Of a stretch of DNA of 40,551 nucleotides, positions 12,844 to 24,948 are shown one piece after another. Location of the stretch: assembly GCA_016212215.1 (NCBI GenBank), contig JACRGV010000106.1, forward strand, positions 1 through 40,551, written 5' to 3'. Both the position numbers and the translations under genes were made by a program. Under the pieces are notes generated by a model. It was not told the DNA's origin. It worked only from the letters and a program-made list of their open reading frames with translations, and searched no databases. Within the stretch, counting starts at the first letter, position 1, and each line of letters begins with the position of its first letter. Source of the DNA: Nitrospirota bacterium. GTDB lineage: Bacteria; Nitrospirota; 9FT-COMBO-42-15; HDB-SIOI813.

Positions 12844-12881
12844 TTATTATCATGGGGAGATAACGGATTGATAACGGATTG
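12844..12881 (-). promoter_or_regulatory. Candidate BTAD/SARP-type promoter, copy 1
   Basis: On the plus strand 12857-12881 contains two perfect tandem copies of GATAACGGATT (11-bp period, one helical turn). Read on the minus strand this is CAATCCGTTAT twice, followed after 6 nt by TGATAAT, a plausible -10 box. The same 25 bp is identical at 20497-20521 with the same box 7 nt downstream. Direct repeats at 11-bp spacing next to the -10 region are the known architecture of SARP/BTAD-activated promoters. A BTAD-gene relic lies just upstream, as the intact BTAD gene does for copy 2. Confidence 0.6.
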
Positions 12882-12921
12882 GGGGGGTATTTTGAAAATA
12901 TTTTGTTTTTAAAAGAAAGTT

Positions 12922-13099
12922 TTACCTTTTCAGGAGTAATTTATGGATGGCTTCAGTCTCTGCGGAGGGTTCTATGCCGAGGTGGGTAGATAGGAATGTT
13001 TTTAATCTTTTATACGCCCGTATTGCCTCAGTACGGCTGCCTGTGCGTTGCCGGCAGAGCATGAGGCGCTGGTATAGTCTCTCGGCAAGTTCATATGCC
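12922..13099 (-). pseudogene. Relic: C-terminal ~57 residues of a BTAD-family regulator
   Basis: The minus strand translates as ELAERLYQRLMLCRQRTGS, RTEAIRAYKRLKTFLSTHLG, IEPSAETEAIHKLLLKR and a TAA, colinear with the end of the intact regulator at 20602 (ELAEKLYQRLMLCLQRTGNS...LGIEPSRETAEIYKAILAG). Upstream the frame hits a stop, so only this fragment survives. The reading frame and many third positions are preserved, so decay is fairly recent or this part was under selection. Confidence 0.8.
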
Positions 13100-13170
13100 T
13101 ACATCCATTTAAAGATAACTTAAATTTCTCTCAAGTTTTTATTAAGATAAAAACATTCTGGGGGATGAAT

Positions 13171-13371
13171 ATGTCAAGAGTTGAACAAATTGAACATGAA
13201 ATTCAGAAGTTAAACCGTGAGGAGCTAACAAATTTCCGGAACTGGTTCCGTGAATACGATGCGGATGAGTGGGATCGACAGATTGAAGGTGATATTCATG
13301 CAGGAAAACTGGATAAGTTGGCAGAAAAAGCCCTTGCAGAACATAAAGCCGGAAGGACTAAACAGTTGTAG
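13171..13371 (+). CDS. Orphan type II antitoxin-like small protein
   Basis: 66 residues from ATG 13171, which has a GGGGG tract 6 nt upstream; the ATG at 13165 overlaps that site. The sequence (SRVEQIEHEIQKLNREELTN, NWFREYDADEWDRQIEGDI, HAGKLDKLAEKALAEHKAG) follows the common antitoxin pattern EIE..I..LP.EE...L..WL....DEWD.QIE.D...GKLD.LAE.AL.E...G, normally followed by a RelE/ParE-type toxin. No toxin frame follows, and a convergent DUF2283 gene begins within 20 bp. It sits inside the broken regulator copy. Confidence 0.65.
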   Translation: MSRVEQIEHEIQKLNREELTNFRNWFREYDADEWDRQIEGDIHAGKLDKLAEKALAEHKAGRTKQL

Positions 13372-13389
13372 CATCTTTTGACAACAGCT

Positions 13390-13629
13390 TTATCCTGATA
13401 CTTGTCTTTTACTCGCATGAAGGACTGTAATACCTACAATTTCCCCCTTTTCGTACCTTATAATAATATCATCATCAGTAAGCTCGCTATCATCCGCATG
13501 ACTCGGTTTCTTAAAGTTTAAATACAACACATCCGCCTCCTCATCATAACTGGACCAGATACGTTTAAATGGTATGTTCAAGAGTCCGGATGTAATGTTT
13601 AAAACCTCTCTGACGTCTACTGTGGCCAT
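13390..13629 (-). CDS. DUF2283 family small protein (antitoxin-like)
   Basis: 79 residues with the DUF2283 signature: IWSSYDEEADVLYLNFKKPS, a central acidic turn, DIIIRYEKGEIVGITVLHAS. These proteins are usually paired with a small upstream toxin-like gene. Here the start overlaps the end of a shortened partner (13617-13766) by 13 nt, and a strong site (AAGAGGAGAAAACT-ATG) precedes it. The role as antitoxin is inferred from family context only. Confidence 0.75.
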   Translation of the reverse strand: MATVDVREVLNITSGLLNIPFKRIWSSYDEEADVLYLNFKKPSHADDSELTDDDIIIRYEKGEIVGITVLHASKRQVSG

Positions 13630-13766
13630 AGTTTTCTCCTCTTCTGGATCTGTTTAATCCTCCTAAAATAATACCCGGCCATTTCAGAATGTTCTTCAGT
13701 AATATGAAGCCATCTATTTTCATTAAGCCTGATCGGCACACTATTTTTTGATTGTACTATATCCAT
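13617..13766 (-). pseudogene. Internally deleted toxin-like partner of DUF2283
   Basis: A 49-codon frame: MDIVQSKNSVPIRLNENRWL, HITEEHSEMAGYYF, then RRIKQIQKRRKLWPQ and TAG. The first part matches the N-terminus of the small toxin-like family that precedes DUF2283 (SKNGVPIRLTDERW.HI.E.H.EMAGYY). The last 15 residues look like that family's C-terminal end. The middle ~50 residues are missing, in frame. Upstream the same frame is coding-like for another ~45 codons (ECLVL-stop-NNHGEWNCTKSGKWFRSS) but is broken by a TAG. Confidence 0.5.
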
Positions 13767-13897
13767 AATATATTGAGCTTTCCTGTCTGAACCTGAAGAT
13801 CTGAACCACTTTCCTGACTTTGTACAATTCCATTCACCATGGTTATTCTATAATACCAGACATTCCAATGCAATAATCGAAATTAGATTATCAAATT

Positions 13898-13969
13898 CTA
13901 CCCCGCCAGGATGGCCTTAGAGATCGTCTCGGTCTCCCGTGAGGGTTCAATTCCGAGTGGGTAAAGAAT
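13898..13969 (-). pseudogene. Relic: last ~20 residues of another BTAD regulator copy
   Basis: The minus strand reads LGIEPSRETETISKAILAG and TAG, nearly identical in sequence and stop position to the end of the intact regulator (LGIEPSRETAEIYKAILAG). It differs from the relic at 12922, so it comes from a separate copy. Upstream of LG homology is lost. Confidence 0.75.
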
Positions 13970-14003
13970 ATTCCCTCCACATTGACGGGGTGGGGGTGAT
14001 TCT

Positions 14004-14099
14004 ATGGGGAACAGAATAATAACATTGGGAAAAGATATTAGGAAAAGACCTACAGATGCGGAACAATTGTTATGGATTCACTTGAGAATCAAACGGTAA
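14004..14099 (+). pseudogene. Truncated DUF559 (restriction-endonuclease-like) N-terminus
   Basis: A 31-codon frame (LGKDIRKRPTDAEQLLWIHL, RIKR, TAA) matches the opening of DUF559 proteins (ARELRKNPTDAEKLLWSHLR). The remaining ~80 residues of that very-short-patch-repair-like nuclease fold are absent, and GC-rich repeat sequence follows. Confidence 0.6.
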
Positions 14100-14114
14100 T
14101 AAGGGAGAACTGCT

Positions 14115-14385
14115 TATACCACCCTCCCCTTACCCCCTCCTACCTCCCCCTGCAAGTGGGGGAGAGATAAGGAAGTGGAATAATTATAGCCCTCCAGTCA
14201 AGGGAGGGGAAAGAGAAAATGTTATTCATTACGGAAGATGGTTTACCCACTTGAAATGAGAAAGAACCAAATAATTTTTTTCAGGATTTTTTTACCCCGG
14301 GCGACGTTACAACCGACGTTACAACCGATTTGACACCACGGATAAACTCTTCTATCATAATTTCCACAAGGTAAAGGATTGGACA
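14115..14385. repeat. GC-rich repeat remnants in a gene-free stretch
   Basis: 14117-14215 holds two palindromic modules (CTACCTCCCCCTGCAAGTGG and CCCTCCAGTCAAGGGAGGGG), variants of the CCCTCACCC payload seen at 32575-32710. Downstream to 14385 there is no gene; the tandem words GACGTTACAACC, CGACGTTACAACCGA occur at ~14303-14327. Confidence 0.6.
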
Positions 14386-14715
14386 ATGTCATTGATTGCA
14401 GTTTTACAGGAGAGAGAAAAAAGGCTTAAATGCTTACGAGAGGATGCCATAATCGAGGCTGAAAGGCTCGCATCCCTTTTAAGAAAAAAGTATGACTTCG
14501 ACGCTATTTATCTCATTGGCTCTGTTCTGACAGGAAGATTCAGGATTAACTCGGATATAGATATGGTTATAAAAGGCTTGAAGATAGAGGATTTCTTCAA
14601 GGCTTATGCCTTTATCATCAAAGAGGCCGGATACAGGGTTGATCTGAAACCTTTTGAAGACCTCTCAGAGGAATTTAAAAAAAGAATTTCAACTGAAGGG
14701 AAGCAGCTTGGATAA
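14386..14715 (+). CDS. MntA-type minimal nucleotidyltransferase (antitoxin-like)
   Basis: 109 residues with an N-terminal helix and the nucleotidyltransferase motif in the exact GS-X10-DXD form (GSVLTGRFRINSDID, Ser46 to Asp57/Asp59), preceded by FDAIYLIG. MntA antitoxins of this class neutralise HepT-family toxins, in characterised cases by transferring AMP groups to them. The stop overlaps the next frame: that gene can start at TTG 14708, inside this gene's last codons, so the pair is coupled. It lies inside the decayed regulator copy, consistent with arrival as a unit. Confidence 0.75.
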   Translation: MSLIAVLQEREKRLKCLREDAIIEAERLASLLRKKYDFDAIYLIGSVLTGRFRINSDIDMVIKGLKIEDFFKAYAFIIKEAGYRVDLKPFEDLSEEFKKRISTEGKQLG

Positions 14716-15184
14716 AGAGATTATAAGAAGTCTGATATCCGGCATTGAAAGAGAGTTAGAAAATCTCAATGAACATAAAAGAGAGTTAAAAGATATAGAT
14801 TCCTACAACTCGATCATCATCAGACGTTCAATCGGTTCAATCCTCCATGATTTTTACAACTGTTGTGAAAGGATATTCAAGAACGTAGCCATTGAGATAA
14901 ACGGCGGATATGAGGATAGTGATAAGTGGCATAAGGCCCTGTTATATAAAATGACCATGGCAATTAAGGACACCAGGCCGGCGGTTATTTCAGAAGAACT
15001 TGCCGCTGACCTCGACGAATTTCTCTCCTTCAGGCATGTTTTTAGAAACATCTACGGATTTGGGCTCAAAAGTGAAAGGATAGATTACCTCGCAAAGAAA
15101 TTCGATAAAGTTGTAGACCGGTTTATCGAAGAAACCACTAAATTCCTTGCCTTCCTGAATGAGGAACTCGTAGAAGAAGCATAG
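14708..15184 (+). CDS. HepT/HEPN-like protein paired with MntA-type gene, catalytic His replaced
   Basis: I start it at TTG 14708 (GAAGGGAAG upstream), giving 158 residues that begin DKEIIRSLISGIERELENLN; an upstream ATG at 14654 would overlap the partner by 62 nt. It is all-helical and the end resembles HEPN/HepT-like ribonuclease proteins (DLDEFLSFRHVFRNIYGFGL, ERI.YLAKKFDKVVDRFIEE). In many relatives the motif is FRH.FRHAYG with R-X4-H; here R109-X4 is followed by Asn114, so the catalytic His position appears substituted. It may be an inactive toxin, or belong to a subfamily using another His (H110). Confidence 0.65.
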   Translation: MDKEIIRSLISGIERELENLNEHKRELKDIDSYNSIIIRRSIGSILHDFYNCCERIFKNVAIEINGGYEDSDKWHKALLYKMTMAIKDTRPAVISEELAADLDEFLSFRHVFRNIYGFGLKSERIDYLAKKFDKVVDRFIEETTKFLAFLNEELVEEA

Positions 15185-15262
15185 ACAACATTAGCAGGCA
15201 TAGCCGTAATCCATGACTCCAGCACCTGATACCTTCACTGTGACAACAACAATTCTGAATAT
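15185..15262 (-). pseudogene. Relic: middle fragment of a BTAD/MalT-like regulator
   Basis: The minus strand reads SELLLSQ-stop-RYQVLESWITAMPAN, matching the intact regulator at ~22603-22680 (SELLLSQGRYNVLESWITSVPAE). The Gly codon has become TGA. Together with the C-terminal relic at 12922-13099 it suggests one regulator gene pulled apart by the toxin-antitoxin genes now lying between. Confidence 0.75.
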
Positions 15263-15264
15263 GC

Positions 15265-15350
15265 AGAAGAACTTATCTCAAAGATACACAACTCAGAACT
15301 GATCATCCTTGAGGGTGCCGCCCATTCTTTCAAATTTGAAAAATCCGACA
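15265..15350 (+). pseudogene. Relic: C-terminal fragment of the alpha/beta hydrolase
   Basis: The plus strand reads ELISKIHNSELIILEGAAHS, FKFEKSDIS, colinear with the end of the hydrolase at 24136-24948 (GLASKIPNSELIILENAAHSMIFEEPE), including the presumed catalytic His. The order and orientation (regulator fragment minus, hydrolase fragment plus) copy the 20.6-24.9 kb arrangement, with the 5' halves of both genes deleted. Confidence 0.75.
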
Positions 15351-20601: not shown

Positions 20602-23436
20602 CTACCCCGCCAGAATAGCCTTATAGATTTCCGCTGTTTCCCGTGATGGTTCTATGCCGAGGTGGATGGAGAGGAGGGTTTTTAATCTTTTAAAAGTCCT
20701 TACTGCCTCAGTACTATTGCCTGTGCGTTGCAGGCAGAGCATGAGGCGCTGGTAAAGTTTCTCGGCAAGTTCGTCTATCTCTATCCCTTTGTTGTAACAG
20801 GCAATCGCGTTGTCTGTTACTCCCCTTTTCTCGTGATACTGGCCGAGTCTGCTGATTGCTGTAATGAATCTGTCTCTAAGACGTTCGCGCTGTGAAAGTG
20901 TCCAAGGCTCTTTTATATCACCGGGCAGAAAGTGTCCCACGTACATAGTGATGGCCTTTTGGATGCATGGGATTCCCCTTCCCGCTTTACCGCCTGCATC
21001 AATATCCTCAGACTGTTTCAGGAGGTGATTGAAACCCCATGTATCCACCCAGCAGTGTTGCCTGTCTATGGCCAGTCTGCTGTTGTTGTAGATGACTGTC
21101 TTGTCACTTCCTATCAGTCTCCTTAGCCTGCAGAGCGCCATTGAAAATGCCTGATTAGCCTGGTCTCCATCAGAGTCAGGCCAAAGTGAGTCAATAACAT
21201 CTTCCTCTGCAGCTCCTTTCCCCCCTGCGGCAATAAGCATCTTTAGTAAGGACAGCGGCTTTTTCTGTACCTTCCCGGAAAACTCTACTTTCTTGTTATC
21301 TACCCATATCTCAAACCTGCCGAGGGTATATATCTTTATATCCCATGGCCAGTCAAGGACATCCGGCGAAGGTGTGTAATAGGCAGTCAGATTATTCAGC
21401 CGGATCAATTCCCTTACATGAGGTACTTCAATCCCTTCTGCACATAGTCGGGCTGCAGTAGGTAAGGTGGTCAGCATAAATATAGAAATCCCTGTTGTCT
21501 TAGACAGTGCCATGGCTCCCCTGAATTTATCACAAAAGATACTCCTCCTTGCTTTCATCATTGCAGACATTGCTTCTAATAGCAGGCACAGGTATTCATG
21601 AAAAATGCTGTTTACAGCCTTGCCTGTCCTTCGTATTTCAGCAATATCTCCTTTTAAAGATACGGACTTGCCGGCCTCAAGCCTGTATAACGCAAGTACG
21701 TATCTGTGGAAGTTCAGCATAAGAGGCCCGCCCAGTTCTTCGGAATGTCTGACACACTCCTCTGCATGTTCCAGAGCACAATTAATATCAGAAGTGAACA
21801 TGGCTAAGTGCATTGCAATATTTGACATCTGGTGATGATAAAAGACCCTGCTGTAACTGCGGATTTTGTCCATCTCTGCGGTTAATTTCTGGGAATATTT
21901 TTTTGCTGAATCTTTATCACCAAGCAATACTGAATTATAAATCCCGGTTCCATAAAACATAACATTCAATAACTGTATCCCTGTTTTTTCAACAATTCTG
22001 AGACACTCATCAGTCATGTCCATTGATTTCTTCAGTTGTGCAGTGTAGACATAATACATTGCAACAGAGCGGAGCCAGAAAAGGTGAGGTAGATAATGGC
22101 TGACAGAGGTATTATAAGCCTGTGACACAATATCCAAAACAACACTTGCCTTGGCTATCCTGCCTAACCAGAGATAGTATAGAATAATAGTGTGACCGAC
22201 CATAAGCTTACGGTTTATATCCTTGGAATTTTGGATGATATCCAATGCACGGCCTTCCCAATATGCGATTGCCGGATTTTGAGGCTGTCTGAACATCATG
22301 GCGCTGAATATAGCGGATACGGTACGTTCTTCTATCCCTCTTGTTGGAAAATCCGGGTAAGCTGCTATTATGCCCTCAATGTCCTGCAGATAGCGGTCAA
22401 GCGGTTTAAATGCCTTCCACTCATACAGGTATGTCTCTACAATGCCGCTCCATGCCTCAAATATACTGGCTGCATCACCGGCTGTTTTAAACAGCCGGTA
22501 CGCTGATTCGAGACTGGATCTTGCTTTCTCAGGGTCTGCGGACATAAGGCACATTCCAAGATAGTAGAGTAATCGCGGAGATTGGTTCATTACTTCAGCA
22601 GGTACAGACGTAATCCATGACTCCAGCACATTATACCTTCCTTGTGATAACAGCAATTCTGACTGTTCTGATATAACCTCCTTAAGTCCCGGCCACTTTT
22701 CCGCTTTAATAAAGAGATGTGCGGCATTTTCTGGAAAACCTGCATCTTTTAGCACATAAGCGGCAGTTGCAGTAATTTCCCTCCACTCATCCTTATTAAA
22801 CCGCCCTTTAGCATAAGACTGGAGAAACTCCCTGAACATGGGATGATACTGATATATTGCATCCTCATGATTAAGAATATTTATAAAGAATCTACCGGCG
22901 TTTAATTGGTAAAGGATGTCTCCACCGGCAGGATTTAATGTAAGTTTCAGGGCCATTTCAACCGTAATTTCATTAAAGAGTGATATCTTCACTAAAAAGT
23001 CCTGTGTCCCTGCATTAAATTTCTTAAAGACTTCTCTCATAAAGTAATCAAAGAGTACCTTCCTGCCTGTATGTCCTACACCAAATGACTTATCCTTTCT
23101 TTTAATGCCTTCTTTAATATATCCCGTCATCAAAACAAGCCCTGCTGTCCATCCCTTTATAATATCCTGTATCCTGCAAACCTCGTCATTACCTGACAGA
23201 CGGCATCCCAGCAACTTTGCTATCCCTGATACATCTTCATCAGACAGAAGAAGCTCTTCGCTGTCAATAATATCCATTTCACGATTTGTAATATGTCTCG
23301 CAAATATAGATGGAGGGGATGTCCTGCTTATAATGATAATGCTGCAATCGGCCGGTATCTCTTTAATGGCAGTATTGATGATTTCCATGAAGGTTGAGTT
23401 AGCTGAAAACACCCCCCCAGCCCCCCCCTTGAACAA
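20602..23436 (-). CDS. MalT/BTAD-type transcriptional regulator, C-terminal part (split gene)
   Basis: 944 residues in this frame from a TTG. Residues ~13-60 continue a STAND/NACHT-type ATPase (EIINTAIKEIPADCSIIIIS, RTSPPSIFARH). A winged-helix region and a long TPR-like helical array follow (residues ~150-690). Next comes an OmpR-like DNA-binding domain (IKIYTLGRFEIWVDNKKVEF, KPLSLLKMLIA, ALCRLRRLIG) and a bacterial transcriptional activation domain (LAEKLYQRLMLCLQRTGN, LGIEPSRETAEIYKAILAG). This is the architecture of MalT-like/SARP-like activators. The N-terminal Walker A segment is in the upstream frame (23399-24025); a repeat insertion and a one-base shift separate them. Confidence 0.8.
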   Translation of the reverse strand: MFKGGAGGVFSANSTFMEIINTAIKEIPADCSIIIISRTSPPSIFARHITNREMDIIDSEELLLSDEDVSGIAKLLGCRLSGNDEVCRIQDIIKGWTAGLVLMTGYIKEGIKRKDKSFGVGHTGRKVLFDYFMREVFKKFNAGTQDFLVKISLFNEITVEMALKLTLNPAGGDILYQLNAGRFFINILNHEDAIYQYHPMFREFLQSYAKGRFNKDEWREITATAAYVLKDAGFPENAAHLFIKAEKWPGLKEVISEQSELLLSQGRYNVLESWITSVPAEVMNQSPRLLYYLGMCLMSADPEKARSSLESAYRLFKTAGDAASIFEAWSGIVETYLYEWKAFKPLDRYLQDIEGIIAAYPDFPTRGIEERTVSAIFSAMMFRQPQNPAIAYWEGRALDIIQNSKDINRKLMVGHTIILYYLWLGRIAKASVVLDIVSQAYNTSVSHYLPHLFWLRSVAMYYVYTAQLKKSMDMTDECLRIVEKTGIQLLNVMFYGTGIYNSVLLGDKDSAKKYSQKLTAEMDKIRSYSRVFYHHQMSNIAMHLAMFTSDINCALEHAEECVRHSEELGGPLMLNFHRYVLALYRLEAGKSVSLKGDIAEIRRTGKAVNSIFHEYLCLLLEAMSAMMKARRSIFCDKFRGAMALSKTTGISIFMLTTLPTAARLCAEGIEVPHVRELIRLNNLTAYYTPSPDVLDWPWDIKIYTLGRFEIWVDNKKVEFSGKVQKKPLSLLKMLIAAGGKGAAEEDVIDSLWPDSDGDQANQAFSMALCRLRRLIGSDKTVIYNNSRLAIDRQHCWVDTWGFNHLLKQSEDIDAGGKAGRGIPCIQKAITMYVGHFLPGDIKEPWTLSQRERLRDRFITAISRLGQYHEKRGVTDNAIACYNKGIEIDELAEKLYQRLMLCLQRTGNSTEAVRTFKRLKTLLSIHLGIEPSRETAEIYKAILAG

Positions 23437-24025
23437 AGGGGGGGATTTTAATTTCCCTTTGTGAATCTAAGACTCCTGGCGGGACGCCCGACAACCCTTG
23501 TTGCTCGCACTCCCCCTCACCCCCTCCCGTCAAGGGAGGGGGAATTAATTTTGTACCCTGTCCCCCACTTGTGAAAGACTGGGAGGGGCTGGATAAAAAA
23601 GCACCCTCCTGAAAATTATCAAAGACAATTACGGAATGAGGAGGTATCTGTGTAAATAATTCATGGAAAAAGTTTCGTGTAAAGGTGGATAAACCTCCCT
23701 GGTATTCAGAAGTAAAGTGCGGAAGGTCTTTCAGCTTACTGTTTTTCTGTTGTGATTTGACGGCAAGGCTAAGATAGTGGAAAAGGGTGGCAGGGTCCTT
23801 GTCCCCTGAGTCAACCTGATACCATAGACAAGGGGTTTTCTTTTTATCAATGTAACTATTCACAAGGGTTGTCTTACCTGCACCGGGTGGGCCGTTAATC
23901 CAGACTGACTTGTATTTAATCGCATCATTCAGGAGCTTAAAGAGCCGCTTGCGCAGATAGACTCTGGATACAACAGGAGTGGTAATCTTTGCAGGGGCCT
24001 TTATTCGTTGTTGCCGTTGTCGCAC
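23399..24025 (-). CDS. MalT/BTAD-type regulator, N-terminal part with Walker A (split gene)
   Basis: 208 codons from GTG 24025. Residues ~14-40 are the usual lead-in (KITTPVVSRVYLRKRLFKLL), Walker A is NGPPGAGKTTL at ~44-54, and Walker B-like SVIVFDNFQEGAF ends near residue 143. From there to the stop the frame translates inserted repeat DNA (LSSPSQSFTSGGQG, IPPPLTGGGEGE, FVQGGGWGGVFS) without a stop until TAA. Removing one G from the G8 run at 23421-23428 (C8 on the plus strand) joins this frame to the 944-codon frame, giving a 1,140-residue protein. Confidence 0.7.
   Translation of the reverse strand: MRQRQQRIKAPAKITTPVVSRVYLRKRLFKLLNDAIKYKSVWINGPPGAGKTTLVNSYIDKKKTPCLWYQVDSGDKDPATLFHYLSLAVKSQQKNSKLKDLPHFTSEYQGGLSTFTRNFFHELFTQIPPHSVIVFDNFQEGAFLSSPSQSFTSGGQGTKLIPPPLTGGGEGECEQQGLSGVPPGVLDSQREIKIPPFVQGGGWGGVFS
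23414..23605 (-). repeat. GC-rich repeat inserted in the regulator gene
   Basis: About 190 bp containing palindromic modules (CCCCTCCCGTCAAGGGAGGG at ~23521-23540, TGTCCCCCACTTGTGAAAGACTG nearby) and homopolymer runs C7, C8 and G7. It is flanked by near-identical short direct repeats AAAACACC (23406-23413) and AAAAGCACC (23597-23605), compatible with a target duplication. It interrupts the conserved FDNFQE...FMEIIN segment of the ATPase domain. Confidence 0.7.
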
Positions 24026-24135: not shown

Positions 24136-24948
24136 ATGCCGGTTGTAAAGGTAAATGACATAAACATGTATTACGAGGTTCATGGAGAGGGTGAACCTCT
24201 TGTGCTTATCCACGGCTCATGACTTGATTCAACTGCATGGTCTTTACAAATGCCGGCGTTTTCTGCAAAGTATAGTGTAATAATCTTTGATAACCGCGGT
24301 GTCGGACGAACTGATACGACAAAACCTCCCTACTCGGCAGAACAGATGGCAGGAGACGTAAAGGGGCTGATGGATGTACTTGGTGTCAGGAATGCCCACA
24401 TACTTGGATATTCCATGGGCGGACAGATTGCGCAGGAACTTGCAGGAATGTATCCGGGATATGTAAGGAGCCTGATACTTGCGGGTTCTTATGCCCGGCA
24501 GACGCCTATCGGCCTGAGCAAAACACGATTGCTATTACAGATGTTCATGGAAGGGGTTAACCCTGAATTTGTTGTGAAAACATTCTTCCTATGGCTCTTT
24601 TCAAACCGGTTCTTTGAAGATGAGGAACAGGTAAACATTGCTGTAAAGAACTTTCTGAATCCCCATTATCCTCAGCCACCGGATGGCCTTGAGGGTCAGG
24701 GACTTTCGATTATTAACTATGACGGCCGGGAGCGGGTCGGCAAAATCTCCGCACCAACCCTCATAATAGCCGGCAAGAATGATATAGCCATACCTTTAAG
24801 CTGTACAGAAGGACTCGCCTCCAAAATCCCCAACTCAGAACTCATCATCCTTGAGAACGCCGCCCATTCCATGATCTTTGAAGAACCTGAAAGATTCAAC
24901 CGGATAGTGATGGAGTTTCTGGGGAGGATGAGAATAGGTGATAGGTAG
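24136..24948 (+). pseudogene. Alpha/beta hydrolase with an in-frame TGA at the oxyanion-loop glycine
   Basis: The strong site AAAGGAGGGG precedes ATG 24136. The frame reads PVVKVNDINMYYEVHGEGEP, LVLIHGS, TGA, LDSTAWSLQMPAFS and continues to 24948. Family members have HGSG or HGLG here, so TGA replaces one Gly codon (GGA to TGA). Downstream the enzyme looks intact: FDNRGVGRTD, nucleophile elbow LGYSMGGQIAQEL, acid loop IIAGKNDIAIP, and His in ENAAHSMIFEEPE. Other genes here stop at TGA, so recoding of TGA as Gly is unlikely. Translation could restart at ATG 24250 but would lack the oxyanion loop. Divergent from the regulator, as often seen for regulator-target pairs. Confidence 0.75.

Follow-up and report, generated by a model that had tools for sequence, protein, structure and literature searches.

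A palindromic, high-copy repeat interrupts the gene of a putative MalT-like regulator on the minus strand of the window (the whole 40,551-nucleotide stretch of DNA analysed here). It probably arrived as a tolerated, protein-coding insertion that was displaced from its frame by one base only afterwards. According to this reading, the repeat would have entered a surface loop after the Walker B motif and would have been tolerated as a translated in-frame spacer of about 65 codons, like similar repeats in dozens of this genome's genes. A later one-base shift (an eighth G where the repeat family has seven) would then have thrown the two halves out of frame, either as a recent inactivating mutation or as a draft-assembly error. 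As assembled, the gene would yield a stub holding a fragment of the ATPase, and the full regulator would not be made.

Organization of the Regulator Gene

The regulator is listed as two minus-strand ORFs, 23399-24025 and 20602-23436, and the split is genuine in the assembled sequence. Walker A, Walker B, TPR and BTAD follow one another in this order, the series being interrupted by the insert, and the gene is predicted from its sequence to encode a MalT-like protein composed of a STAND ATPase, a TPR region and a C-terminal BTAD. The upstream ORF contains Walker A and an AAA match, while the downstream ORF contains the TPR matches and the BTAD (PF03704, E 1e-21). Based on the ORF, the AAA match and the alignment, the 5′ coding part (23606-24025, minus strand) covers the start region and Walker A (GPPGAGKTT) and closes where Walker B (VIVFDNFQE) ends, and this N-terminal part shares 40-59% identity with the N-termini of relatives. 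The 3′ coding part (20602-23406, minus strand), delimited by the ORF, domain matches and alignment, comprises the remaining ATPase domain, the TPR region and the BTAD, including the stop codon.

A profile of the regulator's relatives matched MalT (8bob) over 400 positions with an E value of 6e-57, and it also matched the BTAD domains of AfsR and EmbR. It is the ATPase core that aligns to MalT, and the BTAD that matches AfsR and EmbR. Unlike these known proteins, the regulator unites a MalT-like ATPase with an AfsR-type BTAD located at the C-terminus, and repeat inserts sit in the ATPase loops.

Position of the Insert and Probable Tolerance of the Site

The insert lies in the ATPase-domain loop directly after Walker B, bounded by the codons GAG (23608-23606) and TCA (23406-23404), where the closest orthologue, L051, has GCG instead. 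By alignment, the inserted stretch (23407-23605, minus strand) measures 199 nt, against 3 nt in that orthologue, and repeat matches place its repeat-derived part between about 23567 and 23404. No repeat match was found for its initial ~38 nt (23605-23568) in the sampled genome stretches.

In other genomes, the majority of the full-length relatives are uninterrupted single ORFs of ~1,000-1,120 codons, in which the alignment places the equivalents of DNFQE, at the end of Walker B, directly before the equivalents of SANST. The pieces of L051 are 52-60% identical to the regulator, and its site is empty of insert. The named sequence hits and the loci of the relatives have no 31-mer in common. L033, L036, L040 and L049 carry other in-frame inserts immediately before the Walker B strand, that is, in the neighbouring loop. 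The insert of L036 is itself a repeat, with ~20 matches in its own genome, and those of L040 and L049 have just a few weak matches. In the model of the L036 ATPase, for which MalT was the top Foldseek match, the core is confident and the insert, a loop of low confidence, connects helix 94-115 with strand 136-141; the regulator's insertion point maps onto the next loop, ahead of helix 152-160. An earlier note on this DNA had proposed a repeat insertion in the regulator's ATPase domain, and both the uninterrupted relatives and the dispersed matches to the repeat bear this out.

Structure of the Insert and Its Reading Frames

The insert contains two G/C hairpins (23520-23542 and 23422-23444; DNA fold z = -3.1). 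The first belongs to the repeat hairpin CCCCCTCCCTTGACGGGAGGGGG with its tail (23512-23543, minus strand), defined by hairpin search and copy comparison, in which the regulator has GAG at 23518-23516 where most copies have TAG. The second is part of a module with a G-rich tail and a TTTTCA end (23404-23449, minus strand), recognized by frame and repeat analysis, over which both reading frames overlap. The terminal inverted repeats and target-site duplication of a mobile MITE were looked for: inverted arms of 12 nt are present (23417-23428 and 23581-23592), and the short direct repeats reported to flank the insert do exist, AAAACACC at 23406-23413 and AAAAGCACC at 23597-23605. The downstream AAAACACC corresponds to the conserved end of the repeat family (other copies read G7-TG/TA-TTTTC), so that part of the flanking direct repeat belongs to the element itself and gives no evidence of a target-site duplication.

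The upstream frame runs through the entire insert without a stop and terminates at 23401. In the downstream frame, a stop codon beginning at base 23469 leaves just the final ~65 nt of the insert open, a segment that contains C7, G8 and G7. The earlier claim that both frames are open through the insert thus stands for the upstream frame and fails for the downstream one. The frames of the two halves are one base apart, so that the copy in the regulator fails to continue the host ORF and is one base out of register downstream. As the earlier note had also stated, the split falls at G tracts, and fusion of the halves would total 1,140 codons.

A Repeat Family Residing in Genes

Searches of the 3.0-Mb draft genome with the insert's repeat returned 451 candidates at first look and at least 40 matches scored at E ≤ 0.001. 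With numbers of this size, the identity of the insert as a repeat is not a matter of chance. Weaker matches were obtained in 8 of the 12 relatives searched. In stretches of the genome totalling 820 kb, 293 repeat islands were counted, 41 of them within long ORFs. An island was counted as in-gene on ORF criteria, if its ORF had 200 codons or more and reached at least 60 codons beyond the island on either side; the homology check covered about 13 genes. Genes confirmed by Pfam to carry the repeat between or inside domains encode LigA, LeuRS (in its editing domain), DnaX, E2, SDR, CheA, CheB and CobU, and TilS and a cyclase likewise carry it in frame. The share of islands inside long ORFs and the Pfam-confirmed proteins together indicate that in-frame residence is common in this genome.

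Inserts derived from the repeat, in frame and tens of codons long, were located in LigA (L073:4960-7149), LeuRS (L081:2814-5474), TilS (L144:772-2412) and CobU (L129:17245-18150). Within the window, a glycoside hydrolase family 3 gene has an in-frame repeat insert of ~49 codons at 2756-2902.

The possibility that split genes are a common outcome of these repeats was considered and rejected. Five candidates were tested: all four with Pfam matches on both sides proved to be pairs of different adjacent genes, and the fifth had no Pfam match. No second repeat-split gene was found among them.

Many contig ends (L098, L100, L109, L110, L112 and L113) have a near-identical repeat of the CAT type at a distance of ~95 nt. 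This type probably breaks the assembly, and it may have been recently amplified.

The G Tracts and the Question of Switching

The G runs are part of what the repeat brought in; the regulator gene did not build them. Among the 39 genome copies with the core CCCCTTTGTTCAAGGGG, 36 have seven Gs. Since copies with CAT between the tracts have an equal total length, the tract comparison was made within the CT subtype, where all seven other readable copies have seven Gs and the regulator alone has eight before the CT (23421-23428, minus strand). The run of seven that follows (23412-23418, minus strand) is typical of the family in the copy comparison. Because seven Gs would bring the two frames into register, the simplest history would be that the repeat inserted in frame and a shift by one base came later.

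It had also been suggested that slippage in G8 or G7 toggles the regulator, perhaps together with nearby surface genes, as a reversible phase switch. Such a switch could build on the presence of both tracts within ~65 nt open in both frames, on frames that are one base apart and on the intactness of the remainder of the gene. As in homopolymer-tract phase variation, a single base in a G tract sets the frame; here, however, the tract is part of a repeat and is uniform across family copies, with no sign of hypermutability. The tract was brought by the repeat, and the nearest relative and the neighbouring genes show plain decay. We consider a phase switch very unlikely, and the proposal of the earlier note is not supported on this point. 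The alternatives that it named, a plain knock-out or a homopolymer sequencing error, may account for the split.

Alternatively, slippage on the G tract, by the ribosome or during transcription, could recode the message and give some full-length protein. Both frames are open over the tracts and the upstream codons look maintained, as recoding would have it, but the relatives conserve no slippery motif, the tract is characteristic of the repeat family, and Rfam yielded no RNA family match. Recoding appears extremely unlikely.

Possible Signs of Translation Versus Immediate Inactivation

A further rival to the tolerated, later shifted insertion is a plain knock-out, in which the repeat inserted out of frame and killed the regulator at once, leaving a young pseudogene whose upstream frame is open by chance. 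The copies of the repeat elsewhere bear directly on this possibility. The exact core CCCTTGACGGGAGGGGGTNAGGGG occurs in 78 genome copies, 69 of which have the T that makes the upstream frame's codon a TAG stop. Among the nine without it, four are read through in the same frame within genes (TilS, the cyclase, a YyaL-like protein and the regulator, with its GAG), and the other five lie outside long ORFs. The stop-to-sense change in the regulator falls in the one frame that matters. It is important to note that the stop is also absent in 5 of ~74 copies outside genes, which puts the likelihood of this mark alone arising by chance at roughly 7%. Additionally, the forward frame is open in only 3 of 27 near-full-length copies, those of the regulator, CobU and a TonB-like protein, and in none of the remaining 24, which are non-genic.

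Furthermore, besides the one-base shift, no stop or frameshift was found in the regulator's 3,222 coding nt, and under assumed rates the probability of finding no lesion in this length is ~0.02 at 1% neutral divergence. The frames would, moreover, be in register with the tract length typical of the family. From these sequence features, the regulator's insert looks adapted to translation in place. Two further points weigh against the tolerated insertion: the initial ~38 nt of the insert are unaccounted for by the repeat family, and the copy that gave rise to the insert may have diverged beforehand.

The case for a plain knock-out comes from decay of the gene family in this lineage. In L051 (L051/L122), residue ~150 is joined to ~603, so that ~450 codons after the same region are lost, and a frameshift is present; this state represents either a second, independent loss or a misassembly. 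Heavily decayed shreds of a second regulator copy, 68-91% identical, occupy 12845-15267 of the window. In the neighbouring alpha/beta hydrolase gene (24142-24948, plus strand), the HGS motif is followed at once by an in-frame TGA (24220-24222), and the listed ORF begins downstream of this codon. The other window genes checked appear intact. Together, the loss in L051, the shreds and the hydrolase TGA make locus decay a serious possibility for the present state of the gene. Set against the copy comparisons and the otherwise intact coding sequence, a repeat that killed the gene on arrival is an unlikely account of it, and the preferred reading remains a tolerated insertion that was later shifted by one base.

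Relation to Known Systems and Biological Meaning

Small palindromic, high-copy repeats have been described in frame within conserved protein genes of Rickettsia, with Wolbachia also cited (PMC2229807, PMC10969869). The repeat studied here resembles these Rickettsia palindromic elements (RPE) and their Wolbachia equivalents in its mode: it is dispersed in high copy, palindromic and hairpin-forming, and resident in frame in conserved genes. The likeness is one of mode; the present repeat consists of G/C-tract hairpin modules and belongs to a different lineage. In the literature searched, no account was found that places this repeat within protein-coding genes of such bacteria or of this lineage.

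A broader proposal is that translated palindromic repeats pervade the proteome and that their G/C tracts act as one-base frame toggles in many genes, regulators included. We regard this as most improbable; if true, a selfish repeat would also serve to generate switchable genes.

The finding carries little weight as a switch. Its main yield is a repeat family that resides in frame in many conserved genes, including those of LigA, LeuRS, DnaX, CobU and TilS. It also carries a warning: in a draft genome, repeat-bearing genes can easily be mistaken for broken ones. The many independent natural insertions constitute a resource for asking where proteins accept foreign peptide.
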